Under the pieces are notes generated by a model. That model was not told the DNA's origin. It ran no database searches and saw only the letters and a program-made list of their open reading frames with translations. A stretch of 36,694 bases of DNA from Rhizobium sp. (lineage in GTDB: Bacteria > Pseudomonadota > Alphaproteobacteria > Rhizobiales > Rhizobiaceae). The position numbers and the translations under genes were made by a program. Position 1 is the stretch's first letter; each line of letters starts with the position of its first letter. Shown piece after piece: positions 1-25,851 of the stretch. Location of the stretch: the NCBI GenBank assembly GCA_020621905.1, contig JAHRYZ010000012.1:1-36694 (forward strand). The letters run 5' to 3'.

Positions 1-849
1 GCCCTGGTTCCAGAAGATGCCGAACATGATCCATTCGACGGCTTTTTCAATGTCGCTGTCGGCGAAGACGACGAAGGGCGACTTGCCCCCGAGTTCGAGG
101 CTGACATTCTTGATGTCGCGGGCGGCAGCCGCCATGATCTTCGCGCCGGTCGGCACCGAGCCGGTGAAGGCAAGCTTGTCGACACCCGGATGCTCGGACA
201 GCGGCCGGCCGGCATCGGGGCCGAGGCCGGTCACGACATTGAGCACGCCGGCCGGCAGCCCCACCTCCTCGGCGATGGCGGCGAGTTCGAGTGCCGTCAG
301 CGGGGTGAGTTCGGAGGGTTTCAACACCATGGTGCATCCCGCGGCAAGCGCCGGCGCGACCTTCCATGAGGCCATCAGCATCGGGTAGTTCCACGGAATG
401 ATCGCGCCGGCGACGCCGATCGGCTCGCGCACGACTTTCGAGGAAAAGCGCGGCTCGGAGAGTCTGATCGGCTCCTCCGGGTTTTCGTCCAGCTCTTCCG
501 CCAGCTTGGCGTAGAAGGAGAAACAGCCGGCGGTATCTTCCATGTCCCAGACGGCTTCCGGCAAGGGCTTGCCGTTGTCGATGACTTCCAGGCGACCCAA
601 TTCCTGCTTGCGTTCCAGAATCTTCTCGGCCATGGCGCGCAGGTATCTGGCGCGCTCGGCTCCGCTCATCCTCGGCCAGGGACCGGTGTCGAAGGCCCGC
701 CTGGCGGCCTTGACCGCCAGGTCGATGTCCTCGGCCGTGCCGGCCGGCGCCTGGTGGATGACTTCTTCCGTTGCCGGATTGACGACCGGGAAGGTGCCGC
801 CCTTGACGGGTGCCAGCCACTGACCGTCGATGAAAAGCTTGTGCTTCAT
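1..849 (-). CDS. Aldehyde dehydrogenase, betaine-aldehyde-dehydrogenase-like (3' part beyond window)
   Basis: NAD(P)-dependent ALDH that would oxidise an aldehyde, possibly an amino- or betaine aldehyde, to the acid. The visible 283 residues begin [11 protein letters not shown] and hold the N-terminal cofactor-binding part: [14 protein letters not shown], the FTGSVPTG nucleotide loop and ELGGKSP with the catalytic Glu near residue 252. The window ends about where the catalytic-Cys segment would start, so that residue cannot be verified. The ATG is preceded by AAGGGG. It lies 53 bases after the glycosyltransferase stop on the same strand and is probably the third gene of a leftward GntR-glycosyltransferase-ALDH unit. 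The family is certain; the betaine-type subclass is inferred from overall resemblance only. Confidence 0.9.
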
Positions 850-902
850 TTTTTCCCCTTCTTGGCTTTTGGTTCTTGCGCAGGCGACGGGGCAAAACCC
901 GG

Positions 903-2171
903 TCAGCCTGTGACTTTGAGGATCGCCTCGGCGGCGCGGGTCGCCCCGGCAAAGGCCTGCATCTTGCGGGCATTGTCCCTGAGGCGGGCCTGCATGGCGC
1001 GGTCGGAGAGAAGCCCGCCGATGACGTCTGCCAGTTCGTCCGGCGACCAGTCGTAGCGATGGAGCATCCTGCCGACACCGGTTTCCTCGGCGCGGCGCGC
1101 ATTGTCGTGTCCGTCCCAGCAATAGGGCATCACCAGCGACGGAACGCCGTAATAGAGCGCCTCGCAGAAGCTGTTATTGCCGCCGTGGTGGATGAAGAGG
1201 CTCGACTGTTCGACCACCGATGGCTGCGGGAACCAGCTGTCGATGAAGACATTGTCCGGCACTTGCACATATTCGTCCCGCCAATGGCCGGCATTGACGA
1301 GGAAGCGATAGGGCAGGGTGGCGAAGACGTCGATCATCCGCCGCAGCATGTCGACATCCATGGCACCCAGCGAACCGAAGCTGGTCAGCACGAGTTCCGC
1401 ATCATTGTGGCTGGCAAAACGCGGCACCTGATAGGGCGTTTCGCGCCGCACGCAGCCGTCCAGGAAGACGAAACGCTCGGGGTCGAGCGGTTCGGCGCGG
1501 CGATGGCGGATGATCTCGGGCGCGAGCAGCAGGTTGAGATCGGGCGAGGCGTCGAGAAACAGGGGTGCGGCGGGCGGCTTCAAGCCGCACTCGCTCATGA
1601 ACGCGGAGAGCCGCTTGTGGGAGGCGGCCGTCACCTTGTCATAGGCTGCGGAAAAGGCCTTCCAGTCCGCGCCCGGCGTTTCGCCGAGACCCGACAGATA
1701 GGGCGGCACCAGCGGGTCGGGGATTTCGGTCTCGGCACAGGACACGACGCGGATCCACGGCACGCCAGCCGTCGCGATCGCCGGAAACATCACCACGTTG
1801 TCGAGCACGATCGCATCGGGCTTCAGCCTTGCCAGCAATTGGCGCAGCGGATCCTCGACGCCGATCGCCGTCTCGACGATGGCGTCCCAGGTCGGCCCGA
1901 CATAAGAGGTGAGCTGTTCGAAGGGCGATTGCCGGAAGGCATCCTGGTGGCGGCTGATGAAGTCGTTCCAGTCGGTCGTCTGGGCCGGACCGCTCTCGCC
2001 TAGCTGATATTCGGCAAAGCCATATTCGGCGAAGACGCCGATGAAACCCGGATGACAGATGAAGACGGGCCGGGCGCCGAGCCGGCGCAGCTCCTGGGCG
2101 ATGCCGACGCAGTTGAGGGCGGCGCCGTAGCTTGCTTCGGGGAACAGGGCGATGGTCTTTTGTGCTGCCAT
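903..2171 (-). CDS. GT1-type glycosyltransferase (copy 1)
   Basis: Predicted 422-residue cytosolic GT-B fold glycosyltransferase resembling the UDP-glycosyltransferase/MGT family, which moves a sugar from a nucleotide donor to a small acceptor. The N-terminus has the acceptor-domain opening ([12 protein letters not shown], then [10 protein letters not shown]). The C-terminal donor-binding signature is HHGGNNSF at residues 328-335, followed by E..YYGVP...PYCWDGHDN. The usual DQ near the end of that motif is replaced by WDGHDN. It has a clear paralogue at 7262-8557 on the opposite strand. It sits 19 bases after the GntR regulator gene and 53 bases before an ALDH, so it is likely co-transcribed with both. 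No signal peptide or membrane segment is evident. Donor and acceptor are unknown. Confidence 0.85.
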
Positions 2172-2190
2172 GGATTTGTTTTTGCTGGCC

Positions 2191-3123
2191 TTATCGCGAA
2201 ACGAGCTTGAAGGCGGGAGGGACGCCGCGGCCGGCGAGGCGCGGCCTCAGCGATTGCGACAGCTGTATATGCACACGCATCAGATCGGCGGCAAGCTCCA
2301 TCTGGCCGCGCTCGATCTGCTCGAGAATCTGGATATGTTCGAGATTGGACTGCATCAGCCGGTAGGTGTTCACGTGGCCCGCCGCGGCATTGGCGCGGCG
2401 CCGGCGATGGTGGTTGGTCAGGGCTTCCGCCATGAAGGGATTGCCGCAGCCCCGCGCCACCAGCATGTGGAAGTCGAAATCGGTGCGCTCGAACAGTTTG
2501 CGGTCGAAATCCGCCTCGCTCATGCTCCTGAGGATGAGCATGGACTGCCTCAGCGAGGTCAGCGCCGGCAGGTCGCGGCGGAATTCGGGCAGGGTCAGTG
2601 CCAGCGGCTCGGTCGCCAGCCGGAACTCGTAGGACTTGGCGACCGCATCGGCGCCCAGCGCAAACTGCTTCAGCAGCCATTGCTGGCCGGCACCGCGTTC
2701 GGCCAGATTATCCTCGGAGAGTTTTTGTAGCGCGTTTTGTACCGTCTGGCGGGAGACGTCATAGCGCCGCTGCAGTCCGGCAACCGTCTGCGCCTCGGCA
2801 ATCCGGCCGGCGGAGAGGTCGCGCAGGATGGCGCTGTAGATCTCCGTTTCTCCATCGCTTTCGCCGACGTCGTCGAGCCGCGCGATGGCCACCGGATCGA
2901 CGGCGAGCAGAAAGCCGCCATCGGCATCGGCGGTCACCAGTTCACGCTCCGCAAGGACATGAAGCGCCTTGCGGACCGGTGTTCGCGAGACATTGCAGTG
3001 CGAGGCGAGCGCCTGCTCGGCTGGCCGTTCGCCGGGCGACATGCCGCGCTCGCTGGCGAAATCCAGTATTCTTTGCGCCAATTCCACATGGCGGTGATGA
3101 ATGCGTCCCGGCTCTGTCGCCAT
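2191..3123 (-). CDS. GntR-family regulator with two winged-helix domains and an FCD-like C-terminus
   Basis: Predicted transcriptional regulator of 310 residues, longer than the usual 220-250 of FCD GntR proteins. Two winged-helix segments are visible: residues about 12-75 (ASHCNVSRTPVRKALHVLAE) and about 92-150 (LQRRYDVSRQTVQNALQKL). An all-helical FCD-like ligand domain with FDFHMLVARGCGN follows. The ATG at 3123 is preferred because AGGTGGGG lies just upstream; an in-frame GTG at 3141 adds six residues. It is the first gene of the leftward unit with a glycosyltransferase and an ALDH and diverges from the polyamine-type ABC operon, so it probably controls the shared intergenic region. The effector is unknown. 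Confidence 0.85.
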   Translation of the reverse strand: MATEPGRIHHRHVELAQRILDFASERGMSPGERPAEQALASHCNVSRTPVRKALHVLAERELVTADADGGFLLAVDPVAIARLDDVGESDGETEIYSAILRDLSAGRIAEAQTVAGLQRRYDVSRQTVQNALQKLSEDNLAERGAGQQWLLKQFALGADAVAKSYEFRLATEPLALTLPEFRRDLPALTSLRQSMLILRSMSEADFDRKLFERTDFDFHMLVARGCGNPFMAEALTNHHRRRRANAAAGHVNTYRLMQSNLEHIQILEQIERGQMELAADLMRVHIQLSQSLRPRLAGRGVPPAFKLVSR

Positions 3124-3339
3124 GCCCCACCTGTCTCTCACAAAGGCCGCATGCTGACCTTAGCCGGCTCTTTTCGCAAGCCTTTCCCTGTCAATTCTGG
3201 CAGCAGTTGAGAAAATGTAAATTCCCTATTGACGTATTTTTTTTATAAATAATACTGTTCACCAACGGCGACACGAGATCGGGACACCGACGCCTCGCCG
3301 AATGAGGTTGGAACAATCATCAAAAATAGGGAGAGATCC
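3124..3339. promoter_or_regulatory. Divergent promoter region between the GntR unit and the polyamine-type ABC operon
   Basis: This 216-base stretch holds no gene. It contains an AT-rich island unlike its surroundings. A rightward sigma-70-like promoter can be proposed: TTGACG at 3229-3234, 16 bases, then AATACT at 3251-3256. An imperfect AT-rich palindrome (GTATT-N12-AATAC, 3234-3255) overlaps it and could be an operator for the adjacent GntR protein. GGGAGAG before the GTG at 3340 is the ribosome binding site. These are pattern matches only. Confidence 0.45.
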
Positions 3340-4410
3340 GTGCGAACGAAAAGCGGATACGCCAGAACCAGCGCCTTTGCCGTCAAACTGCTCGCCGCAA
3401 CCGTACTCGCCGGCAGCGCCGGTGTCGCCAACGCGGCCGATCTCGTCATCTCGAACTGGGATGGCTACATGGCGAAGGACATCGCCGAGAGCTTCAAGGC
3501 CGCAACCGGCCTCGAAATCGAAGTGGTGAACCACGCCACGAACGAAGAAATCATGGGCAAGCTGATGGCGAGCCAGGGCAAGGGCTATGACGTCGTCTTC
3601 GTCTCGTCGCCCTTCGCCGAGATTCTCAACCATCAGGGTCTGGTCGAGCCGCTCGATGGCGCCGCCATTCCGAACCTCGCCAACCTCTATCCCGAGGCGG
3701 TCAATCTCGCCTACGACCCGGGCAATGTCTATTCGGTGCCCTATACCTGGGGCACGACCGGCCTGTGCTATCGCTCCGATCTGGTCAAGACCGCGCCCGA
3801 CAGCTGGATGAACCTGCTGGCCCCGTCCGACGACATCAAGGGCAAGACCACGATGCTGGCGACCGATCGCTGGCTGATGGCGGCGGGCGAGCTCGCCAAG
3901 GGCTATTCGGTCAACGAAGCGGACCCGGTGAAGATCGCCGAGGTCAAGGATCTGCTGATCCAGGCGAAGAAGACGCTGCTCGCCTATGACGACACGACCT
4001 TCTATTCCAAGCTGGTATCGGGCGAAGCCTCGCTCGTGCATGCCTGGGACGGCTGGTGCAATTACGGCATCACCGAGAACAAGGACATCAAGTTCGTCGT
4101 GCCGAAGGAAGGCTCCGATCTCTGGGTCGACACGATCGTCGTGATGAAGAACTCGGAGAAGAAGGATGCGGCGATGAAGTTCATCAACTTCATCCTCGAC
4201 GCCTCCAACCATGCCTGGGCTGCCGAAAACATCCTCTACAAGGTGCCGAACCGCGCTGCGATGGAGAGCCTCGACAAGGCGCTGATCGATCAATACCCGA
4301 ACATGGGCATGACGCCGACTGAACTGACCAAGTACGAACTGCTGCGCGATCTGGGGGCGGCCCAGAAGGACTATTCTCGCGCCGTCAGCGAGATCAAGGC
4401 CGCGAACTAA
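3340..4410 (+). CDS. Polyamine-type ABC transporter substrate-binding protein (PotD/PotF-like)
   Basis: Periplasmic binding protein of 356 residues that would deliver ligand to the permeases encoded next to it. A signal peptide is visible (basic start, hydrophobic core, cleavage near ANA-AD at residues 32-33). The mature start ADLVISNWDGYM and the YDVVFVSSPFAE, VPYTWGTTGLCYRSD and VHAWDGWCN segments are typical of the spermidine/putrescine (SBP_bac_8/PotD) group. The start is GTG, with GGGAGAG about 6 bases upstream. It is the first gene of a rightward unit. The family commonly binds polyamines or related cationic amines, but the co-transcribed glycosyltransferase and kinase mean the ligand may be different. 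Confidence 0.9.
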   Translation: MRTKSGYARTSAFAVKLLAATVLAGSAGVANAADLVISNWDGYMAKDIAESFKAATGLEIEVVNHATNEEIMGKLMASQGKGYDVVFVSSPFAEILNHQGLVEPLDGAAIPNLANLYPEAVNLAYDPGNVYSVPYTWGTTGLCYRSDLVKTAPDSWMNLLAPSDDIKGKTTMLATDRWLMAAGELAKGYSVNEADPVKIAEVKDLLIQAKKTLLAYDDTTFYSKLVSGEASLVHAWDGWCNYGITENKDIKFVVPKEGSDLWVDTIVVMKNSEKKDAAMKFINFILDASNHAWAAENILYKVPNRAAMESLDKALIDQYPNMGMTPTELTKYELLRDLGAAQKDYSRAVSEIKAAN

Positions 4411-4539
4411 GGCCTTAAGCGGAGAAGACCCGAACACTGCAAGACGATGGGGGAGATGTCGGTCTCCCTCATCGCCACCCCTTCGGCTGCCGCGCTCCCT
4501 TGCCGGTCGTCATGGCAATCCCTCGTCTGGAACTCGTGC

Positions 4540-5403
4540 ATGTCCTATCAGTCCGCCCGATCGAACCTGCTTACCGCGCCGGCCGTCGCCTGGCTCGTGG
4601 CGTTCATGGTGGCGCCGTGCCTGCTGATCCTGTCATACGCCTTCTTCCAGCGCGGCATGTGGGGCGGCATCGAATATACCTTCACGCTTGAAAACTTCGC
4701 CCGCGTCGTCGATCCGCTCTATGCGAAGATCTTCCTCACTTCGGCGCGCATCGCCGGTCTTGCGACGCTGCTGGCCATCCTGATCGCCTATCCGGCGGCC
4801 TATGCGATCAGCCGTGCGCCGCGCATGCGCCAGCCCATGCTGCTGTTTTTTGCCGTTCTGCCGTTCTGGAGCAATTATCTGATCCGCACCTATGCCTGGA
4901 TGGTGCTGCTCAACCGCGAAGGCCTGATCAACAACCTTTTGCGCTGGTTCGGCTATCAAGGCGAGCCGCTGTCGCTGCTCTACACGGAAGGTGCGGTCAT
5001 CGTCGGCCTCGTCTACAACTACCTGCCCTTCGTGATCCTGGCGATCTATTCGACGCTGTCGCGGCTCAACCCCGAGCTGATGGAAGCCTCCCGCGATCTC
5101 GGCGGCGGGCCGATCCGGACCTTCTGGCGCGTCACCCTGCCGCTCACCCTGCCGGGCGTGGCTGCCGGCGGTGTCTTCGTCTTCGTCCTGTCGATCGGCA
5201 ATTTCGTGACGCCCGCGCTGCTTGGCGGCGGCCGCTTCCAGATGATCGGCAACGTGGTCTACGACCAGTTCCTCACCGCTAACGACTGGCCCTTCGGTGC
5301 AGCCCTCGGTCTCGTGCTGATCGCCATCATGATCCTCCTCCTGATGCTGCAGGCCCGGGCGACCGCGCGTGCCAGCGGCGAGCGCGGGAGGGCGGACGCA
5401 TGA
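4540..5403 (+). CDS. Polyamine-type ABC transporter permease (PotB-like)
   Basis: Inner-membrane permease of the BPD_transp_1 family, about 287 residues with roughly six hydrophobic segments. The ATPase-coupling EAA loop (EASRDLGGG...FWRVTLPLTLPG) starts near residue 182. The start is uncertain. The ATG at 4540 (MSYQSARSN) gives the usual family length. In-frame ATGs at 4447 and 4456 would add an atypical 28-31 residue extension, although GGGGGAG sits close to them. It ends by overlapping the next permease at ATGA (5400-5403), so the two are probably translationally coupled and form a heterodimeric channel. Confidence 0.88.
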   Translation: MSYQSARSNLLTAPAVAWLVAFMVAPCLLILSYAFFQRGMWGGIEYTFTLENFARVVDPLYAKIFLTSARIAGLATLLAILIAYPAAYAISRAPRMRQPMLLFFAVLPFWSNYLIRTYAWMVLLNREGLINNLLRWFGYQGEPLSLLYTEGAVIVGLVYNYLPFVILAIYSTLSRLNPELMEASRDLGGGPIRTFWRVTLPLTLPGVAAGGVFVFVLSIGNFVTPALLGGGRFQMIGNVVYDQFLTANDWPFGAALGLVLIAIMILLLMLQARATARASGERGRADA

Positions 5404-6188
5404 GAATGGCAAATTCCTCGCGCCTGCCCGGCCGTCTCGTCCTGCTTGCCGTCTTCGGCTTTCTCTACCTGCCGATCGCGGTCCTGGTGGCGCTGTCGTT
5501 CAACGAGGCGGGCCTGCCGACAAGCTGGTCCGGCTTCTCGTTCAAGTGGTACGCCGCGCTCGCCGGCAATGGCGAGATCCTCGGGGCGGCCTGGAATACG
5601 CTGGTCGTCGCGGTGTTCGCGACGCTGATCTCGACGGCGCTCGGCACGCTTTTGGCGCTCGGCATGGAGACACGGCGCCGCAAGAGCACGGGGCTCGAGG
5701 CTCTCGCGTTTGCGCCCATGGTCATTCCGGACATCGTGCTTGCCGTCGCACTCCTCACCTTCTTCTCGCTGCTCAACGTGACGCTTGGCCTGCACACGAT
5801 CATCATCAGCCACGTGATCTTCGACCTCGCCTTCGTGAGTTCGGTGGTCCGGGCGCGGCTCAAGCATTTCGACTATTCGATCGTCGAGGCTTCCCGCGAT
5901 CTCGGCGCCTCGGGCTGGACGACCTTCTGGCGGGTGACGTTCCCGGTACTCCTGCCGGCGATCATCGCCGGGGGGCTGCTGGCCTTCACGCTCTCGGTCG
6001 ACGAGTTCATCATCGCCTTCTTCACCGCCGGCGCCGGCCGTTCCTCGATCACCCTGCCGATCCAGATCTACTCGATGATCCGTTTCGGCATCACGCCGGA
6101 AATCAACGCCCTCGCCACGATCGTCATGGGGGTGAGCGCGCTTGCGCTGCTCATCTCCCAATGGCTCAACAAAGAACAGATGCAATGA
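5400..6188 (+). CDS. Polyamine-type ABC transporter permease (PotC-like)
   Basis: Second inner-membrane permease, 262 residues, with the multi-span pattern of PotC. It carries the EAA loop EASRDLGASGWTTFWRV near residue 163 and the conserved SVDEFIIAFF segment. GGGAGGGCGG precedes the ATG, which overlaps the upstream stop. Its own stop overlaps the ATPase start (ATGA, 6185-6188). It should pair with the PotB-like permease and the PotA-like ATPase. Confidence 0.92.
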   Translation: MRMANSSRLPGRLVLLAVFGFLYLPIAVLVALSFNEAGLPTSWSGFSFKWYAALAGNGEILGAAWNTLVVAVFATLISTALGTLLALGMETRRRKSTGLEALAFAPMVIPDIVLAVALLTFFSLLNVTLGLHTIIISHVIFDLAFVSSVVRARLKHFDYSIVEASRDLGASGWTTFWRVTFPVLLPAIIAGGLLAFTLSVDEFIIAFFTAGAGRSSITLPIQIYSMIRFGITPEINALATIVMGVSALALLISQWLNKEQMQ

Positions 6189-7243
6189 CCGACGCGCCCC
6201 ATTCCCACGAGCCGATCCTGACGATCGACGGCCTCCACAAGAGCTTCGGCCCGGTGAACGCTGTGGACCACGTGTCGCTGGAGATCCGCAAGAACGAATT
6301 CTTCGCGCTGCTCGGCCCCTCCGGCTGCGGCAAGACCACGCTTTTGCGCATGCTGGCCGGTTTCGAGACGCCGACCGGCGGGCGCATCCTCCTGGAAGGC
6401 AATGACATCTCCGCTTTGCCGCCGGAAAAGCGGCCGCTCAACCTGATGTTCCAGTCCTATGCGCTCTTCCCACACATGACGGTCGCCAAGAACCTCGCCT
6501 ACGGGCTTGAGATGGACCGGTTGCCGAAGGCGGAAATATCCCGCCGCGTCGAGGAGATCATGGCGGTGACCGACCTTGGCCAGTTCGCCGGCCGCAAGCC
6601 CGACCAGCTGTCGGGCGGACAGAAGCAGCGCGTTGCGCTGGCGCGCGCTCTGGTCAAGCGCCCGAAGGTGCTGCTGCTCGACGAACCGCTCGGCGCGCTC
6701 GACAAGAAACTGCGCGAACGCATGCAGCTCGAACTGAAGCGCCTGCAGCACGAGGTCGGCATCACCTTCATCATCGTCACCCACGACCAGGAAGAGGCCC
6801 TGGTCATGGCCGACCGGATGGCGATCCTGAAGGACGGCAAGCTGCTGCAATGCGGATCGCCCGAGGCCGTCTACGAAACGCCGGCCGACCGCTTCGTCGC
6901 CAACTTCATCGGCGTGATGAACTTCATCGAAGGTGCGGTCGGCAACGACGGCAATTTCGCTGCCGACGGACTAAACCTGGCGGTCGGAACCGACATCCGT
7001 GGTGCTGCGACGCTTGCCGTGCGGCCCGAGAACATCACGGTGACGGCAGGCGGCGCCGGCAGCGCAGGAAAGATTGTCGACATGGCCTATCACGGTCTCG
7101 ACCGTGTCCTGCACGTCAAGATCGCCGCCAGTGCAACGCCGCTGCAGGTTCGGGTTCCGGCCAATGCCGCCGTGCCGCACACCGTCGGCGACACCATTCA
7201 CATCGCGATCGACCCGGATCGCACCCGGCTATTCAAGAACTAA
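6185..7243 (+). CDS. Polyamine-type ABC transporter ATP-binding protein (PotA-like)
   Basis: Cytosolic ATPase of 352 residues that powers the importer. Visible motifs are Walker A GPSGCGKTT (44-52), the Q-loop in MFQSYALFPHMT, signature LSGGQKQR (from 142), Walker B LLLDEP (163-168) and the H-loop His at 200. A C-terminal TOBE-like domain (AVRPENITV) follows, as in PotA/UgpC-type ATPases. The open frame runs far upstream, but the ATG at 6185 overlapping the permease stop is the natural start. The glycosyltransferase gene begins only 18 bases after the stop, so the transporter and the enzymes are likely one transcript. Confidence 0.92.
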   Translation: MTDAPHSHEPILTIDGLHKSFGPVNAVDHVSLEIRKNEFFALLGPSGCGKTTLLRMLAGFETPTGGRILLEGNDISALPPEKRPLNLMFQSYALFPHMTVAKNLAYGLEMDRLPKAEISRRVEEIMAVTDLGQFAGRKPDQLSGGQKQRVALARALVKRPKVLLLDEPLGALDKKLRERMQLELKRLQHEVGITFIIVTHDQEEALVMADRMAILKDGKLLQCGSPEAVYETPADRFVANFIGVMNFIEGAVGNDGNFAADGLNLAVGTDIRGAATLAVRPENITVTAGGAGSAGKIVDMAYHGLDRVLHVKIAASATPLQVRVPANAAVPHTVGDTIHIAIDPDRTRLFKN

Positions 7244-7261
7244 AAAATGAAGGGGAACCCC

Positions 7262-8557
7262 ATGTCGCAAAAGACAATCGCATTCTTTCCAGAAGCCGCC
7301 TTCGGACCGGCGCTGAATTCCGTCGGTATCGCGCAGGCCATCGAGGCGCTTGGTCACAAGGCCGTCTTCCTGTCCGATCCGGGTTTCGTCTCGGTCTATC
7401 AGGGCTATGGTTTCGAGGCCCATCCGGTGAATCTCTCCGAGCCGATGCCGCCGGAGCAGATGGCGAAGTTCTGGGAAGACTTCATCAACGGCCACATTCC
7501 GAACTTCCGCAAGAGCCCCTACGACCAGATCGACAACTATGTGAAGGACTGCTGGACGGCGATCGTCGACAGCGCCAAATGGGCGGAAAAGGACCTCCCG
7601 GGCGTGCTGGCCAGGATCAAGCCGGACCTGATCTGCGTCGACAACGTCATCCTGTTTCCGGCCATCAAGCATTTCGGCAAGCCGTGGGTGCGCATCATCT
7701 CCTGCTCGGAAAACGAGATCGAGGATCCCAAGATCCCGCCGCATCTCTCCGGCTGTGGCGCCAAGGATTATGCCTGCCATGCGGCCTATCGCGACCATTT
7801 CAACGAGGTCATCAAGCCGATCCATGACGACTTCAACGAATTCCTGACATCGACCGGCGAGGACGCCTATCCGATCGGCCAGTTCTTCGAGGCCTCGCCC
7901 TTCATGAACCTGCTGCTCTATCCGGAGCCGGTGAAATTCGAGCGCGAACACCCGCTGAACCCGAGCCAGTTCCAGTATCTCGAAGGCTGCGTGCGCTCGG
8001 AAAAGCCCTACGAAGTGCCGGTCTTCAAGGCCAACAACGACAAGCCGCTGCTCTATGTCAGCTTCGGCAGCCTCGGCGCCGGCGACACGGATCTGCTGAA
8101 GCGGATCATCGCAACGGTCGGCAAGCTGCCGTACCGCGCTCTGGTCAATGTCGGCGACTACAAGGACCAGTACGAAAACCTGCCCGACAACGTCATCGTC
8201 GAGAGCTGGTTCCCGCAGCCATCTGTCATCCCGCTCGTCGACGCCGTGATCCATCACGGCGGCAACAACTCCTTCACCGAGTGCCTCTACTTCGGCAAGC
8301 CGGCGATCATCATGCCCTATGTCTGGGACGGCCACGACAACGCGACCCGCGTCGACGAGACAGGCCACGGCTTCAAGATGCCGCGATACGACTGGACCGA
8401 CGCGGAACTGGCGGCAAAGATCGACCACATGATCAACGACCCGGCGATGAAGGCCAAGCTCGCCGCTGCCGCAAAGCACATGCAGAGCCAGAACGGGCCG
8501 CAGAAGGCAGCCGGTATTCTCGACGAACTGGTGAAGACCGGGAAATACAATGGTTGA
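7262..8557 (+). CDS. GT1-type glycosyltransferase (copy 2)
   Basis: Predicted 431-residue GT-B glycosyltransferase, paralogous to the gene at 903-2171. The two share the opening (QKTIAFFPEAAFG versus [13 protein letters not shown]), the [22 protein letters not shown] segment and the donor site. Here HHGGNNSF lies at 331-338, followed by MPYVWDGHDNATR and RYDW. AAGGGGAA precedes the ATG at 7262, which I prefer over an in-frame ATG at 7247. It follows the ABC ATPase by 18 bases, and its last codons overlap the cupin start by 8 bases. Its placement inside a transporter operon suggests it modifies, or acts with, the imported compound. Sugar donor and acceptor are unknown. Confidence 0.87.
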   Translation: MSQKTIAFFPEAAFGPALNSVGIAQAIEALGHKAVFLSDPGFVSVYQGYGFEAHPVNLSEPMPPEQMAKFWEDFINGHIPNFRKSPYDQIDNYVKDCWTAIVDSAKWAEKDLPGVLARIKPDLICVDNVILFPAIKHFGKPWVRIISCSENEIEDPKIPPHLSGCGAKDYACHAAYRDHFNEVIKPIHDDFNEFLTSTGEDAYPIGQFFEASPFMNLLLYPEPVKFEREHPLNPSQFQYLEGCVRSEKPYEVPVFKANNDKPLLYVSFGSLGAGDTDLLKRIIATVGKLPYRALVNVGDYKDQYENLPDNVIVESWFPQPSVIPLVDAVIHHGGNNSFTECLYFGKPAIIMPYVWDGHDNATRVDETGHGFKMPRYDWTDAELAAKIDHMINDPAMKAKLAAAAKHMQSQNGPQKAAGILDELVKTGKYNG

Positions 8558-8912
8558 GACGCTGAATACGACGGCCCCGCACATCCACGGCGCCACGACC
8601 TTCGACGACCTCGTCGACTGGGGCGTGCAGTCGGATGCGATCGAGGGTGCTTCGAAATCGACCGGCCGCCTGCTGTTCAAGGGGCCGAACAACCAACCGG
8701 AAACCGGCATCTGGGTCTGCACGCCCGGGCGCTGGCGGCTGTCGATCCCGCGCGACGAGTTCTGCCACTTCGTCGCCGGCTCTGCGACCTACCGGTCGGA
8801 CGACGGCGAGGTGATCGACGTCACCCCCGGCACCGCCGTGATGTTCAAGGCCGGCTGGACCGGCGAATGCACGGTCCACGAGACCATGCGCAACATCTAC
8901 ATGCTGGCCTGA
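8550..8912 (+). CDS. Small cupin protein (Cupin_3/DUF861-like), copy 1
   Basis: A 120-residue single-domain beta-barrel protein of the Cupin_3 type, the fold seen in EutQ-like and ureidoglycine-aminohydrolase-like proteins. Key stretches are GIWVCTPGRW, then DEFCHFVAGSATY with possible metal ligands (Glu, His), then VTPGTAVMFKAGW and VHETMRNIYML near the end. It starts inside the glycosyltransferase tail (8-base overlap). It is followed after 26 bases by a second cupin with the same layout, so it is a tandem duplicate. Members of this family often bind or process small amine or sugar ligands. The precise activity cannot be read from sequence. Confidence 0.82.
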   Translation: MVETLNTTAPHIHGATTFDDLVDWGVQSDAIEGASKSTGRLLFKGPNNQPETGIWVCTPGRWRLSIPRDEFCHFVAGSATYRSDDGEVIDVTPGTAVMFKAGWTGECTVHETMRNIYMLA

Positions 8913-8938
8913 GCCGGCCCACTCGAAAGGACATGACC

Positions 8939-9286
8939 ATGACCACCGCACCTTTGATGCGCAATCCGCTCGAACAGACCGATCTCGTCGACTGGGGCAT
9001 CATCCCGACCATGATCGAGGGCGAGAGCCACGTCTCCGGCCGGCTGATCCACAAGGGCCCGAACGGCGAGAGCGAATGCGGGCTCTGGGTCTGCACGCCG
9101 GGCAAGTGGGAGTGCCACGTGACCCGCGACGAGTTCTGCCACTTCCTCGAAGGCCGCAGCACCTATGTGCACGAGTCGGGCGAGGTGATCGAGATTACGC
9201 CGGATACGGCAGCCTTCTTCCCCAAGGACTGGAAGGGCGTCTGCACCGTCCATGAGACGATCAAGAAGGTCTACATGATCCGCTGA
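8939..9286 (+). CDS. Small cupin protein (Cupin_3/DUF861-like), copy 2
   Basis: A 115-residue cupin, a tandem paralogue of the preceding gene: LVDWG, GLWVCTPGKW, RDEFCHFLEGRSTY, ITPDTAAFFPKDW and VHETIKKVYMI align segment by segment. The ATG at 8939 is chosen because AAGGA ends about 7 bases before it; the in-frame ATG at 8933 is too close. The two cupins could form a heteromer or act on related ligands. It probably belongs to the transporter-glycosyltransferase transcript. Confidence 0.82.
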   Translation: MTTAPLMRNPLEQTDLVDWGIIPTMIEGESHVSGRLIHKGPNGESECGLWVCTPGKWECHVTRDEFCHFLEGRSTYVHESGEVIEITPDTAAFFPKDWKGVCTVHETIKKVYMIR

Positions 9287-9337
9287 ACAGCGGAACGAAA
9301 CGCCGCCCTGGCGGCCGTTCGAGGCAAGAGATTGACC

Positions 9338-10375
9338 ATGCTGCAAAGCCAAACGCTGCCGGACGCGCGCCGGGAGTTCATTGCCGCGCATTTCGACGCG
9401 ACACCGGAGGCAAGGGCGCTGCCGGCGGATGCCTCGCCGCGCCGCTATTACCGGATCGAGGTCGCGCCGAAGCTGTTGATGGAGGTCGAGCCCGGCACGC
9501 CGGACTTCGAGGCCTTTGTTCGCATCAGCCGACATCTGAACGCGCTCGGGTTGTCGGCGCCGAAGGTCTTTTCGGTGGATTTCGAGCGCGGGCTGGCGCT
9601 GATCGAGGATTTCGGCCACGGCACCTTCACCCGGCTTCTTGGCGCCAGCCATTCGGAAGAAAAGCTTTACGGCCTGGCCGTCGATGCGCTGATCCACCTG
9701 CATGAGGCACCTGGCGCAGCCCGGATCGATGTGCCGGCCTATGACCATGGTCCGCTGTTCGAAGAACTCGCCATGTTCACCGACTGGTTCGTGCCGCAAT
9801 GCGCGCCGGGCTGTGACGCGGCCGTCTTCAAGGACCGGTTCCTCGGCCTATGGAAGTCCGCGCTTACCGATGTGGCGGAAAGCCGCGACGCGCTGGTGCT
9901 GCGTGACTATCACGTCGACAATCTGATGGTGATCGGAGACCGCCAGGGCGTCGCCGCCTGCGGGCTGCTCGATTTCCAGGACGCGCTGATCGGCTCGGCG
10001 GCCTATGACCTCGTGTCGCTGACCCAGGACGCCCGGCGCGACATCGATCCCGCGCTGGAGGAACGACTGATCGAACGGTACTTCGCCGGACGACCATGCC
10101 TCGACCGTCAGCGCTTCCTCACCGAATACTGGCTGCTCGCCGCCCATCGGCACACGAAGATCCTCGGCAATTTCGAGCGATTGTCGAAGCGCGACGGCAA
10201 GCACGGTTATCTGATCCATCTGCCGCGCGTCGCGCGTCTACTCGACAAGGCGCTGATGCGCGCCGGCCTCGATGATATCCGCGCCGTCATGGACGCGGCA
10301 CTTCCCTCCTGGCGCGACCACGCACCGGTCGCGCCGAATTCCTCTCCGACTTCCGAAGCAGGCAGGACGCCATGA
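9338..10375 (+). CDS. APH-fold phosphotransferase (aminoglycoside phosphotransferase/AmgK-like small-molecule kinase)
   Basis: Cytosolic kinase of 345 residues in the APH/choline-kinase fold. Seen in sequence: ALPADASPRRYYRI at the N-terminus, the hinge-type LALIEDFG, catalytic loop RDYHVDN with Asp190 and Asn195, the metal-binding LLDFQDA (Asp212), and YDLVSLTQDARRDI. This combination resembles AmgK-type anomeric kinases that phosphorylate N-acetylmuramate/N-acetylglucosamine, but the operon does not suggest cell-wall recycling. The ATG at 9338 is preferred over a TTG two codons earlier. The stop overlaps the ALDH start at ATGA (10372-10375). Together with the glycosyltransferase and cupins it suggests phosphorylation of an imported sugar- or amine-containing compound. 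Confidence 0.83.
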   Translation: MLQSQTLPDARREFIAAHFDATPEARALPADASPRRYYRIEVAPKLLMEVEPGTPDFEAFVRISRHLNALGLSAPKVFSVDFERGLALIEDFGHGTFTRLLGASHSEEKLYGLAVDALIHLHEAPGAARIDVPAYDHGPLFEELAMFTDWFVPQCAPGCDAAVFKDRFLGLWKSALTDVAESRDALVLRDYHVDNLMVIGDRQGVAACGLLDFQDALIGSAAYDLVSLTQDARRDIDPALEERLIERYFAGRPCLDRQRFLTEYWLLAAHRHTKILGNFERLSKRDGKHGYLIHLPRVARLLDKALMRAGLDDIRAVMDAALPSWRDHAPVAPNSSPTSEAGRTP

Positions 10376-11934
10376 GCGCTTATGACATTTCCAAGCCCAC
10401 CTATTTTGCGGCGGGAGAATACAGACGCAGTCTCGGCCGGATCATCGACGTGATCGATCCTGCCCGGATCGAGAAGGTCGGGGTGATCACCGAGGTCACC
10501 GAGGACGAGCTTTCCGCCACGCTGGATGCCGCAACGGCCGCCCAGCGCAAGTGGAAGGTTCTCGACGCCAAGACCCGCGCCTCCATCCTGCACAAGGTGG
10601 CCAACCGCATCGAGGCGACCGACATGCGGCGCTGTGCCGAGATCATGTCGCGCGAAATGGGCAAGCCCTATCCGGAAGCGATCGGCGAGGTGGCCAACTG
10701 CGCCGGCGCTTTCCGCTATTTCGCCGAAATGGCGCGCGACGAGGCGGGCAAGATCGCCGGCACCACGCAGACCGGCTCCTTCCAGTTCGCACGCTACGAG
10801 CCGCTGGGCTTGTCCGTCCACATCATGCCGTTCAACTTCCCGATCCTTCTGATGTGCTGGACGGTCGCGGCCTCGCTGGCCTCGGGCAACGGCTGCATCA
10901 TCAAACCGGCACCGGCCACGACGCTGTCGACGCTCGAATTCATGCAGATCTTCGCCGACCTGCCGGAGGGCCTGATCGCCTGCCTGCCGGGCGGCGTGGC
11001 GCTGGCCGAGGCGCTGATCGCCTCGCCGAAGACCCATGCGGTGGCATTCACCGGCTCGGTTGCCGCCGGACGGGCGGTCGCCATCGCCGCGGCCGGCCAG
11101 ATGAAGCCAGCTGTGATCGAGGCCGGCGGTTCCGATCCGATGATCATCACCGCCAACGCTCCCCTCGACGTTGCCGCCGCCGGCGCGGTCACCGCCGCCT
11201 TCCACATGTCCGGCCAGGTGTGCACCTCGGCCGAGCGCTTCTTCGTGGTCGACGCTGTGCATGACGATTTCATCGCGAAATTCGTCGCCGAGACCAAACG
11301 TCTGCGCATTGGCAATGGTCTCAGCAAGGCCGAGATCGGGCCGCTCGTTTCCGAAGCCGCCCGCGCCAAGGTCACCCGGCTGGTGGAGGACGCGGTCGCG
11401 AAGGGCGCCAAGGTCGAGATCGGCGGACGAATCCCGCCGTCCGAGCCGGTCGGCTGGTTCTACGAACCGACCATCCTCACCGGCTGCACGTCCGACATGG
11501 CGATCATGCAGGAGGAGTGCTTCGGACCCGTCGCCGCCGTCATGCGGGTCGGGGATTTCGACCAGGCGATCGAGAAGGCGAACGACAGCGAATTCGGCCT
11601 TGGCGCCTCGGTTTTCACCACCTCTCTTCAAGAAGCGATGGGAGCGGCGGAGCGGCTGGAGGCCGGCATGGTCTGGGTCAACAATCCGCTGATCGACAAT
11701 GACGCGTTGCCTTTCGGAGGCTGGAAGAAATCCGGTATCGGCCGGGAGTTGTCCAAGCTCGGGCTCGACACCTTCCGCCGGTCCAAGATGGTAATCATCG
11801 ACCACAACCCGGTGCGCCAGGAGTGGTGGTATCCCTATCCGGATGCGTGGTTCTACGAAACGGGCGGCCGCAAGCACGCGTCAAGGGCGCTTCGGCCCCG
11901 AACAGATTTCATGACAAGAGGAATTTCGAAATGA
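10372..11934 (+). CDS. Aldehyde dehydrogenase family protein
   Basis: A complete 520-residue NAD(P)-dependent ALDH. Visible are PFNFPIL, KPAPATTLS, FTGSVAAG, the Glu-bearing VIEAGGSDP (Glu250; LGG is replaced by AGG) and the catalytic Cys284 in SGQVCTSAER. EECFGPV and PFGGWKKSGIGRE lie near the C-terminus. About 40 extra residues after the core (QEWWYPYPDAWFYETGG) are not common in the family. It overlaps the kinase upstream and the saccharopine-dehydrogenase-like gene downstream by four bases each, so the three are tightly coupled. It would oxidise a semialdehyde; which one is unknown. Confidence 0.9.
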   Translation: MSAYDISKPTYFAAGEYRRSLGRIIDVIDPARIEKVGVITEVTEDELSATLDAATAAQRKWKVLDAKTRASILHKVANRIEATDMRRCAEIMSREMGKPYPEAIGEVANCAGAFRYFAEMARDEAGKIAGTTQTGSFQFARYEPLGLSVHIMPFNFPILLMCWTVAASLASGNGCIIKPAPATTLSTLEFMQIFADLPEGLIACLPGGVALAEALIASPKTHAVAFTGSVAAGRAVAIAAAGQMKPAVIEAGGSDPMIITANAPLDVAAAGAVTAAFHMSGQVCTSAERFFVVDAVHDDFIAKFVAETKRLRIGNGLSKAEIGPLVSEAARAKVTRLVEDAVAKGAKVEIGGRIPPSEPVGWFYEPTILTGCTSDMAIMQEECFGPVAAVMRVGDFDQAIEKANDSEFGLGASVFTTSLQEAMGAAERLEAGMVWVNNPLIDNDALPFGGWKKSGIGRELSKLGLDTFRRSKMVIIDHNPVRQEWWYPYPDAWFYETGGRKHASRALRPRTDFMTRGISK

Positions 11935-13121
11935 TCATCACCCTTCTCGGCGGCGCGGGCTTCATGGGCGCCGGCATTGTCCGCGACCTCGTCTCCGACC
12001 GCGCCATCGTCGACATCACGAAGATCCGCGTCTGCGATGCGGCGCGCGACAAGATGGAAGCGCTAAAGGAAGAGCTCGGCGATGCGCGCCTGGAACTGGT
12101 TGACCTCAACGTGACCGATCCGGCCGCGCTCAATGCCGCGATTGCCGGTGCCGACATCTGCATCAATTGCGTGCCGACCCTGCTCGGCTTCCAGATGGCA
12201 ATCTTCGAAGCGGCGCTTGCGGCCAAGGTGCCCTATATCGACCTCGGCGGGCTTGGCACCTTCACGGTCAAGCAACTGGCCGAACACGACCGTTTCAAGG
12301 CGGCAGGCGTGACCGCCGTGATCGGCGTCGGTGCCGATCCGGGCATGTCGAACGTGATCTGCCGGGCAGTGGCCGACGAGTTGGACGAGATCGACAAGAT
12401 CAACCTCTACTGGGCCGCGGAACTGGTCGGCGACGAAAACCCGGTTCTCGTTCCGCCCTACAGCGTCTCGACAGTGCTCGCCGAATATGCCCATGAGAGC
12501 ACGCAGTTCTACGAGGGCAAGCATGTGACCTGCCCGCCGATGAGCGGCAGCGAGTTCCTCGACCTGCCGGAACCCTGGGGACGCTGCGAATTCATGCACT
12601 CTCCGCATTCCGAGCAACTGACCGTGCCGCTGGCCGACGGCATCAAGGAAAAGGGCATCAAGGAATTCTCCTGGAAGCTGCACCTGCCGCATCGTGAACA
12701 CGAGGCCTGGGTGGGTCTGGTCAAGGCCGGCTTCGGCGACTTCAACGATCCGGTCGAAGTGGGGGGTGTCAAGGTTCGCCCGCTCGACGTGCTGAACAAG
12801 GTGATCGAACGCAATATCAAGAAGAATGCGGCCAAGATCCCGGCGCAGGACAGTCACGAGATCCACTTTGCCATCGGCAAGGGTCGCAAGAACGGCGTCG
12901 AAACGACGGTGACGGTCGAGGTCGTGGTCAAGCCGGATGCGATGTACGCGCCTTACGTCGACGCCTGCACATCGATGAACGGCTCGATCGCCGCGCAGCT
13001 GATCCTCGCCAATCCGAAGAGGCCGGGCGTCTGGGCGCCGGAAGAATATTTCGACGTCGCGGCCTATTTCAAGGAACTGGAAAAGCGCAAGTTCATCATC
13101 AACAAGCGCGTCGACGCATAG
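11931..13121 (+). CDS. Saccharopine-dehydrogenase-family oxidoreductase
   Basis: A 396-residue NAD(P)-dependent enzyme with an N-terminal Rossmann domain (LLGGAGFMG, residues 5-13). The substrate-domain layout is that of saccharopine dehydrogenase, lysine 6-dehydrogenase and carboxynorspermidine synthase (NCVPTLLGF, YIDLGG, GVGADPGMSNV). These enzymes form or cleave a secondary amine or imine next to an amino acid. The ATG at 11931 overlaps the ALDH stop (ATGA), with AAGAGGAA upstream. It is the last gene of the ten-gene rightward unit. An ALDH beside this family fits oxidation of an amino semialdehyde, but that is inference. Confidence 0.87.
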   Translation: MIITLLGGAGFMGAGIVRDLVSDRAIVDITKIRVCDAARDKMEALKEELGDARLELVDLNVTDPAALNAAIAGADICINCVPTLLGFQMAIFEAALAAKVPYIDLGGLGTFTVKQLAEHDRFKAAGVTAVIGVGADPGMSNVICRAVADELDEIDKINLYWAAELVGDENPVLVPPYSVSTVLAEYAHESTQFYEGKHVTCPPMSGSEFLDLPEPWGRCEFMHSPHSEQLTVPLADGIKEKGIKEFSWKLHLPHREHEAWVGLVKAGFGDFNDPVEVGGVKVRPLDVLNKVIERNIKKNAAKIPAQDSHEIHFAIGKGRKNGVETTVTVEVVVKPDAMYAPYVDACTSMNGSIAAQLILANPKRPGVWAPEEYFDVAAYFKELEKRKFIINKRVDA

Positions 13122-24067: not shown

Positions 24068-25851
24068 GCAGTGGTTGTGACGCGGTGGCGTCCTGGCGAT
24101 CTGACGGAAGTCGTCCGCGCCCTTGATCGTCGCGCCCTCGGAGAGCTGCGTGACGGTCTGGCGATAGATCCGCTGCCACGGGGTCGCGTCGGCGGGCACC
24201 TTGGGGATGCCTTCGCCCTTGCGACGCTCGATCTCGGCCTCGTCCACCAGCATGTCGCAATGACCCTCGTTGAAGTCGATGCGGATGATGTCGCCGGTTC
24301 TCACCCAGGCGAGACCGCCACCGGCCGCACTTTCCGGAGAGGCGTTGAGAATCGACGGGCTGTCGGCGGTGCCTGACTGACGGCCGTCGCCGATCGTCGG
24401 CAGGCTCATGATGCCCTTCTTCAGTAGGTGATCCGGCGGCTGCATGTTGACCACTTCGGCCGATCCCGGCCAGCCGAGCGGCCGGCGCCGCGGATCACCA
24501 GGATCGTGTTCTCGTCGATGTCGAGTTCGGGATCGTTGATGCGCTTGTGGTAGTCCTCTGAACCATCGAACACGACCGCCTTGCCGTCGAACACGCCTTC
24601 CCTGCCGGGCTCGCACAGATAGCGCTCGCGGAAGCCTTCCGACACGACGCTCATCTTCATGATGGCGAAGTCGAACAGATTGCCCTTCAGCACCAGGAAA
24701 CCGGCGCGTTCGCGCATCGGCGCGTCGTAGGGCTTGATGACTTCGCGGTCGTCGGATTCGCGGCCCTGCAGGTTGTCGGCCATGGTCTTGCCGGTGACCG
24801 TCGGACAGGAGCCGTCGAGCTTGCCGGCATTCAGCAGTTCCCACATGATCGCCGGTACGCCGCCGGCGCGGTGGAAGCGCTCGCCGAGATAGGCGCCGGC
24901 CGGCTGGACATTGGCTAGCAGCGGAATGTCGAAGCCGTGCACCTGCCAGTCGTCCGGGTGCAGTTCGACGCCGGCGTGCCTCGCCATGGCGGCGAGATGC
25001 GGCTGCGCATTGGTCGAGCCGCCGATCGCCGAATTGACCTTGATGGCGTTGAGGAAGGCGGCGCGGGTCAGGATGTCGGACGGCTTGATGTCCTGAAGGA
25101 CCAGTTCCACGGCGCGACGGCCGGTGCGATAGGCCATCTGGCCGCGCTCGCGGTAGGCGGCCGGAATGGCGGCGCAGCCGGTCAGGGACATGCCGAGCGC
25201 CTCGGCCATGGCGTTCATCGTCGAGGCCGTGCCCATGGTGTTGCAGTGGCCGACCGAGGGGGCAGAATCGAGCGCCGCCTCAAGGAATTCCTCGCGGGTG
25301 ATCTCGCCCGCGGCAAGCTTGCGGCGCGAGCGCCAGATCACGGTGCCGGAGCCGACCAGATCGCCGTCATGCCAGCCGTCGAGCATCGGACCGCCGGAGA
25401 AGACGATGGCCGGCAGGTCGACGGTGGAGGCGGCCATCAGCGCCGAGGGCGTGGTCTTGTCGCAGCCGGTGGTGAGGATGACCCCATCGAGCGGGTAGCC
25501 GTAGAGGATTTCGACCAGGCCCAGATAGGCGAGGTTGCGGTCGAGCGCCGCGGTCGGACGCTTGCAGTTCTCGAACAACGGATGGGTGGGAAACTCGATC
25601 GGAATGCCGCCGGCGTCGCGAATGCCGTCGCGCAGGCGCTTGGCGAGGTCGAGGTGGTGGCGGTTGCAGGGATTGAGGTCGCTGCCCGACTGGGCAATGC
25701 CGATGATCGGCTTGCCCGAACGCAGCTCTTCCGGCGTCGTGCCGTAGTTCATGAAGCGCTCGAGATAGAGCGCGGTCAGATCGATATGGTCGGGATTGTC
25801 GAACCAGTTCTGGGAGCGCAGGCGTCGGCCGGTCTTGTTTCCTTCGCTCAT
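24068..25851 (-). pseudogene. IlvD/Edd-family sugar-acid dehydratase, frameshifted
   Basis: Iron-sulfur dehydratase that converts an aldonate to a 2-keto-3-deoxy acid. Cluster-type cysteines are visible: Cys62 (LNPCNRHH), Cys129 (TTGCDKTTPS) and Cys202 ([11 protein letters not shown]). [14 protein letters not shown] and GKTMADN follow. The overall pattern fits the arabonate/xylonate dehydratase subgroup rather than IlvD proper. The first frame runs to 24421 but is wrong after RGAG near 24481. In the next frame the protein continues ([20 protein letters not shown] ... RTPPRHNH) to about 24071. One missing base in a short G run at 24480-24481 would explain it. The stop after HNH also reads TGC instead of a stop. 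The start has GGGAGGAG. Corrected length is about 594 residues, normal for the family. Confidence 0.85.

Follow-up and report, generated by a model that had tools for sequence, protein, structure and literature searches.

The stretch of DNA analysed here (hereafter, the window) comprises bases 1-36694 of contig 313 of a draft genome whose nearest relatives, judged by the locus described below, are rhizobia. At its beginning lies a module in which an importer stands next to two glycosyltransferases (GTs), two cupins, a kinase, two aldehyde dehydrogenases and a further dehydrogenase. Genes were called from open reading frames (ORFs), translations and Pfam/NCBIfam matches, and coordinates are those of the window; loci (L) and genomes (G) used for comparison carry numbers. 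The module consists of the following genes:

1-849, minus strand: ALDH2, a PuuC-like aldehyde dehydrogenase truncated by the start of the contig (ELGG motif; R. daejeonense counterpart in L038, 85% identical)
903-2171, minus strand: GT2, UGT-family glycosyltransferase paralogue with Ala at the catalytic-His site (Pfam/NCBIfam)
2191-3141, minus strand: GntR-type regulator (ORF; 36% identical to an annotated GntR regulator of Ruegeria conchae, L034)
3340-4410, plus strand: SBP, periplasmic binding protein, PotD/PotF-like, with T/W at PotD positions 168/171 (NCBIfam, alignment)
4447-5403, plus strand: PermB, PotB-like ABC permease (40% identical to PotB)
5400-6188, plus strand: PermC, PotC-like ABC permease (39% identical to PotC)
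6185-7243, plus strand: PotG-like ABC ATPase (50% identical to PotG)
7262-8557 (alternative start 7247), plus strand: GT1, UGT-family glycosyltransferase with Pro16 at the catalytic-His site and Gly357 at the donor-Gln site
8550-8912, plus strand: cupin A, EutQ-like, Cupin_3/DUF861 (Pfam)
8933-9286, plus strand: cupin B, EutQ-like, Cupin_3/DUF861 (Pfam)
9338-10375, plus strand: AmgK-like sugar kinase of the APH fold (Pfam/NCBIfam, motifs)
10372-11934, plus strand: ALDH1, module-specific aldehyde dehydrogenase (Pfam)
11931-13121, plus strand: SDH, saccharopine/carboxyspermidine-dehydrogenase-like (Pfam, structure search)

All genes listed in the original prediction for this locus are present and match the corresponding Pfam families. 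The 3' part of ALDH2 is lost because the window starts at base 1 of the contig; its counterpart is whole in the sister genome G033 (L121). Genes overlap at five junctions: the ATGA overlaps that had been predicted are located at PermB/PermC, PermC/ATPase, kinase/ALDH1 and ALDH1/SDH, and 8 bases are shared at GT1/cupin A. The divergent unit, described beforehand as a second GT, a second aldehyde dehydrogenase and a regulator, is GntR-GT2-ALDH2. Two pairs of paralogues are found, GT1 and GT2 with 48% identity and the two cupins with 52%. No Rfam match to an RNA element was obtained across the window.

The module is real and conserved. It was compared in 102 loci, each selected for GT1 and many of them closely related. 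A scan of named genomes contributed L039-L118 (the best 80 of at least 574 matches), and plasmid records contributed loci of Rhizobium, Shinella, Sinorhizobium, Ruegeria and two haloarchaea. A cupin is present in 90 of these loci, ALDH1 in 72, an SBP close to that of the window in 63, GntR in 62, GT2 in 55 and ALDH2 in 44, followed by SDH (27), the AmgK-like kinase (26), an FAD oxidase (14), a GlmU-N uridylyltransferase (13), and a ROK kinase and a sugar-phosphate mutase (6 each). In the 54 loci that are flanked by 6 kb or more on either side, ALDH1 is found in 48, GT2 in 35 and the kinase in 17; a close SBP is found in 39 as against a cupin in 50, and the importer is therefore a part of the commonest form of the module and not of its core. 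The core is GT1-cupin-ALDH1, and the importer is exchangeable. The module is spread over haloarchaea and alpha- and gammaproteobacteria of soil, plant-associated, marine and hypersaline habitats, on plasmids and on other replicons. Between the window and Natrialba magadii GT1 is 58%, cupin B 62% and ALDH1 58% identical, and a second Natrialba aldehyde dehydrogenase is 31% identical to ALDH1. Among 200 related genomes searched, 22 have a GT1 relative (68-99% identity), and 16 of these 22 also have a full-length second copy of the GT2 type. A phylum-wide draw of 398 genomes yielded 8 with a strong match, that of the window included, and two copies are present in 6 of the 7 others.

Both GTs have the two-domain fold of the UGT family, with a UDP-sugar-binding C-terminal domain (PF06722, PF00201 and PF04101 exceed their cut-offs), and in an alignment of 186 rows (129 GT1 and 57 GT2; 161 distinct sequences) each position of the HHGGNN motif is conserved in 184-186 rows. 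The catalytic His of the N-terminal GH motif, however, is absent in every row (161/161 distinct sequences): its site is occupied by Pro in 128 of the 129 GT1 rows and by Ala in one, and by Ala in all 57 GT2 rows. The partner Asp is retained in all 186 rows, and the position of the donor Gln is Gly in GT1 (Gly357). Of four control GTs, three have the His, among them the two from the macrolide family MGT (GH), and the one from R. tropici has Asn; seven distant GTs from related genomes (L025-L031) are uninformative as controls, the readable ones mostly having a different motif (GTxGD). The best NCBIfam subfamily of both GTs is MGT (TIGR01426), with 104 and 115 bits, below the curated cut-off of 260, and the nearest solved structures are spider-mite UGTs, with 28-29% identity to UGT203A2. 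A quick tree of 159 rows separates 101 GT1 rows, the archaeal ones among them, from 54 GT2 rows, each set being a supported group; two actinobacterial rows and the long-branched L046 and L048 fall outside both. The GT1 of a record titled Oceanobacillus sp. HTM 045 (L113) clusters in the tree with alphaproteobacteria, and this record may therefore be contaminated or mislabelled. A broken GT relative, nearest to GT2 (51%), lies within a type VI secretion region of a Pseudomonas frederiksbergensis plasmid (L035, 15288-15923).

The importer had been predicted to be of the polyamine type, which holds for its make-up and less so for its ligand. It is a four-gene PotABCD-like set with 28-50% identity to PotABCD/PotFGHI, and SBP-PermB-PermC-ATPase lies immediately upstream of GT1 in all 63 loci whose SBP shares 45% identity or more with that of the window; the SBP, on the other hand, stays below every listed NCBIfam equivalog cut-off (PotD 140 against 582 bits, PotF 113 against 636), and its ligand site is altered. 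In an alignment of 65 rows with more than 45% identity to the window SBP, a few same-species pairs included, the PotD residues W34, Y37, S83, W229, D257 and Y293 are retained, whereas T168 and W171 replace D168 and E171 in 65 of 65 rows. We take D168/E171 and D257 of PotD to be the acidic residues for the two amine ends; with the D257 site kept and the other altered, one amine end would thus be recognized as in PotD and the other would not. The ligand is probably a compound that is cationic at one end and lacks a second amine in the usual position. In structure the SBP is most similar to proteins that bind polyamines. Haloarchaeal SBPs differ from the close ones, that of L033 retaining D168 and E171 and that of L032 having D and T. 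Spermidine or putrescine as the obvious ligand is weakened by T168/W171 in the close SBPs, yet the L033 SBP has both acids.

As evidence against itself the original prediction had named loci with the GT, the cupins and the kinase but no transporter, and this is in part what was found. In 29 loci GT1 and a cupin occur without a close SBP. Four of them have a Liv-type SBP (two cupins each in L047, L052 and L071, and a single one in L104, where the contig then ends), 9 have a distant PotD-like SBP (6 haloarchaeal), and 2 are contigs that have the permeases but are cut before the SBP. The remaining 14 show none of these, many of them being on short contigs. TTT or TRAP transporter genes are located nearby in L051 and L076. 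The PotD-type importer is the commonest one of the module.

The theme shared by the loci is amines. Glutamine-synthetase-family genes are located 3.6-15 kb from GT1 in 10 of the 102 loci, four of them from Natrialba, and beside the N. magadii module stand DAO oxidases, a glutamine amidotransferase and a gene of the aminotransferase family, whose nearest model is the HemL subfamily; no Puu-specific model is reached by any of them. In L071 (2576-12485), GT1 and two cupins lie between a protein resembling the C-terminal half of trimethylamine N-oxide demethylase and the Liv-type importer, and after the latter comes a trimethylamine monooxygenase (Tmm; score 834 bits, cut-off 675). In view of these two neighbors a methylated amine may be the substrate, yet Tmm is present in just 1 of 102 loci. 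A relative of the module importer (SBP 45.7%) is found on a plasmid of Rhizobium etli Mim1 (L173, 7968-11874) beside choline dehydrogenase, electron transfer flavoprotein and a dimethylsulfoniopropionate-lyase-family gene, with no glycosyltransferase found in that stretch; as a hint at the substrate this neighborhood is not decisive.

The AmgK models are the only NCBIfam matches of the kinase (219.7 bits, below the equivalog cut-off of 500), which has the motifs RDYHVDN and DFQD, presumably the catalytic motifs of APH-fold kinases. An antibiotic-resistance APH is not favored, NCBIfam matching AmgK only and the sole structure match being 3csv. Since a second AmgK relative (35-40% identity) is present elsewhere in the genome in 6 of 6 genomes checked (that of the window and five relatives), the module kinase is an extra copy. 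A GlmU-N gene occurs in 13 of the 26 kinase-bearing loci versus 0 of the 76 kinase-less ones; the table for the loci with both flanks (12/5/0/37) gives a Fisher p-value of 1.8e-8, which is overstated because the 13 GlmU-N loci represent about three lineages. Phaeobacter (L074) and Pseudophaeobacter (L118) have a GlmU-N-like gene of 250 residues, placed after those for the kinase, ALDH1 and ALDH2 and before that for the FAD oxidase. In Pseudomonas, GlmU-N shares one frame with ALDH2 in 7 of 10 loci and has its own ORF in 3 (L066, L081, L098). One of the shared frames, of 750 codons, in Pseudomonas laurylsulfatiphila (L072, 14708-16960) joins a GlmU-type uridylyltransferase to a PuuC-like aldehyde dehydrogenase, both domains being seen by Pfam. 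A full GlmU adjoins ALDH2 in L078. The GlmU-N residues R18, K25, Q76, G81, T82, D105, G140, E154, N169 and N227, which we take to be the substrate contacts of E. coli GlmU, are retained in 12 of 12 complete rows (the L067 row is incomplete), and positions 15 and 103 vary. In haloarchaea, a ROK kinase and a GlmM/PGM-type mutase are found in 6 of 9 loci; they are absent within the 10 kb of L041, and L043 and L045 are short contigs. The presence of a UGT beside enzymes that remake UDP-sugar from free sugar suggests that sugar is released, i.e., that it serves as a recycled handle. The original prediction was that an imported amine-containing compound undergoes sugar transfer and/or phosphorylation and that an amino semialdehyde is oxidized; amine import, sugar transfer and aldehyde oxidation fit what was found, but the kinase is probably better explained as acting on the released sugar.

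The enzyme that would produce the aldehyde differs between loci. Among the SBP-bearing loci, 47 are covered for 5 kb or more downstream or have an extension; of these, 20 have SDH alone, 14 a DAO-family FAD oxidase alone, none both and 13 neither. Thirteen of the 14 oxidase matches share 62% identity or more with the query from Phaeobacter or Pseudomonas, and these queries are 28% identical to PuuB. The SDH reaches 29.8 bits against the carboxy(nor)spermidine dehydrogenase equivalog (cut-off of 800 not reached) and is a distant match to 4ina and 8deb; it was rejected as a core part, being present in 27 of 102 loci and in one of them (L043) just 29% identical. R. daejeonense ALDH2 shares 40% identity with PuuC of E. 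coli. For the cupins, a fold search gave the DUF861 protein 3bcw as the nearest match, and no known enzyme was prominent. A third, more divergent cupin (39-45%) is located between cupins A and B in the rhizobial loci L089, L097, L101, L109 and L115. On the Agrobacterium tumefaciens plasmid pAt14-818c_b (L174, 1-9500), an FAD oxidase and a cupin lie close to a relative (48%) of the ALDH of the archaeal module, and there is no glycosyltransferase match in this stretch.

Taken together, these features are consistent with a pathway of amine uptake, glycosylation, oxidation, de-glycosylation and sugar recycling, a scheme to which, as a whole, we would give about an even chance. A cationic amine would be taken up by the PotD-type importer, and the His-less GT1 and GT2 would add to it a sugar from a UDP-sugar, most likely onto nitrogen. 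An amine-oxidizing enzyme, SDH in the window and a PuuB-like FAD oxidase elsewhere, would convert the conjugate to an aldehyde, which ALDH1 and ALDH2 would oxidize to the acid, as their families and the exchange pattern suggest. The sugar bond would then be cleaved, perhaps by the cupins; the cupin PpnP cleaves N-glycosidic bonds. The freed GlcNAc or glucose would be phosphorylated at C1 by the AmgK-like kinase, and a uridylyltransferase would remake the UDP-sugar. Some relatives have the gene of such an enzyme within the module, and the strain of the window would draw on one encoded elsewhere in the cell. The logic would be that of the gamma-glutamyl (Puu) pathway for putrescine, except that the amine would be shielded by a sugar and not by glutamate. 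The substrate, the sugar, the role of the cupins and N-glycosylation itself are what we infer. More tentative, and in our estimate somewhat on the doubtful side, is the specific proposal that bacteria and haloarchaea shield amines by N-glycosylation with base-less UGTs and UDP-GlcNAc or UDP-glucose, instead of acetylation or gamma-glutamylation, that a cupin cleaves the N-glycosidic bond after the oxidation, and that an anomeric kinase and a uridylyltransferase recycle the sugar.

No characterized pathway with this set of genes was matched in full-text searches of an open-access library on the module and on glycosylated polyamines, in agreement with the original prediction; the families are known, and their combination and the implied chemistry are new to us. 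In the Puu pathway (E. coli puuPADRCBE), an amine is conjugated and the conjugated group is later removed, a logic shared with the scheme proposed here, and the importer, the aldehyde dehydrogenase and, in some relatives, the FAD oxidase have counterparts there. Unlike it, the module has UGTs, in some loci a sugar-reactivation set, and a binding-protein importer, SDH replaces the oxidase in the window, and a glutamine-synthetase-family query for a PuuA-type ligase found no match in the window at 1e-8. The AmgK-MurU route recycles MurNAc and GlcNAc at the anomeric position and resembles the module in its kinase and, in 13 loci, in a nucleotidyltransferase that would turn the sugar-1-phosphate into UDP-sugar; the module kinase, in contrast, is a second copy that lies in an amine operon, and its partner is GlmU-N-like and not MurU. 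Spider-mite UGT203A2 and UGT202A2 and the macrolide GTs differ from the module GTs, which have Pro or Ala for the catalytic His and Gly for the donor Gln. The catalytic His is also absent from human UGT1A4 (Pro40) and UGT2B10 (Leu34); these are, however, eukaryotic membrane enzymes with UDP-glucuronate as the donor. Their N-glucuronidation of amines is described in PMC5075577.

Several observations weigh against the proposed scheme. The R. tropici GT, one of the four controls, is likewise without the His, the GT motif aligns with that of UGT202A2 (FGPGHLN) only with gaps, and H78 and H188 are conserved in 127 of 129 GT1 rows, such that another residue, these two being candidates, may stand in for the lost catalytic His. 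No glycosidase was recognized, and assigning its role to the cupins is a guess. The reactivation genes are in a minority of loci (the kinase in 26 of 102, GlmU-N in 13, 10 of these from Pseudomonas), and neither the window nor the corresponding stretches of the sister genome G033 yielded a GlmU-N gene. The exclusion between SDH and the oxidase is partly a matter of lineage, and the oxidase match in L087 is only 29% identical. The L033 importer retains D168/E171, and its ligand may therefore be a normal polyamine. In Natrialba, the amidotransferase gives no match to PuuD, and the glutamine-synthetase-family gene (250 bits) is under the gamma-glutamylputrescine-synthetase cut-off of 650. Of three actinobacterial relatives, two combine the importer and the GT (one with an aldehyde dehydrogenase) and one has the GT alone.

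It could be argued that the UGTs serve to O-glycosylate a toxic compound from plants or microbes, as macrolide GTs do, and that their linkage to an ordinary amine-catabolic operon is fortuitous. Both GTs have MGT as their best subfamily, and their nearest solved structures, the spider-mite UGTs, are detoxifying enzymes; the scores, however, are far beneath the MGT cut-off, the catalytic His present in both MGT controls is gone in all rows, the linkage to cupin and ALDH persists across archaea and bacteria, and sugar salvage enzymes would be pointless if the glycoside were excreted. We consider this explanation unlikely. The same enzymes could instead serve biosynthesis, with the imported amine turned into a glycosylated solute, signal or surface compound and the donor supplied by the kinase and the uridylyltransferase. 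The kinase, uridylyltransferase and GT also fit such a donor-supply route, but no recurring exporter is found among the clustered neighbor families, the aldehyde dehydrogenases together with the amine oxidase or SDH indicate breakdown, and a kinase of free sugar means salvage and not de novo supply, which makes biosynthesis improbable.

Ordinary putrescine or spermidine catabolism, in which the GT and the kinase play a subsidiary part, for example in controlling sugar-nucleotide pools, would account for the PotABCD-like importer, the PuuC/PuuB-like enzymes, the glutamine-synthetase-family genes near 10 loci and the diamine residues of the L033 importer. It does not account for the absence of the second acidic site from the 65 close SBPs or for GT1 and cupin also standing beside Liv-type and other importers, and we find it quite unlikely. 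UGT reactions can be reversible, and a glycosylated amine might be taken up and broken down by a UGT working in reverse, with UDP, to yield UDP-sugar and amine. The Trp-rich site of the SBP would suit such a ligand, but the sugar kinase and the GlmU-type enzyme would be superfluous, there are two GTs in one locus, and polyamines are what the closest structural relatives of the SBP bind; this possibility appears very unlikely.

Should the proposed shielding of amines by a recycled sugar be correct, it would add a new conjugation chemistry to amine metabolism, explain a module of soil, plant-associated, marine and hypersaline microbes, suggest a function for DUF861 cupins beside amine genes, and provide a source of small soluble UGTs with possible activity on nitrogen. 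The loss of the catalytic His and the fixed signature of the SBP make the idea testable with a few purified proteins.

Downstream of the module (13239-36694), the window has genes for a two-component system, for an ABC importer of the sugar type and for the catabolism of sugar acids, among them that of D-erythronate dehydrogenase (377 bits against a cut-off of 325). The ORF of an IlvD/Edd-type dehydratase in this part (24421-25851) spans only about the first 460 of 595 model positions, and the lengths of the open frames are similar in the sister genome G033.

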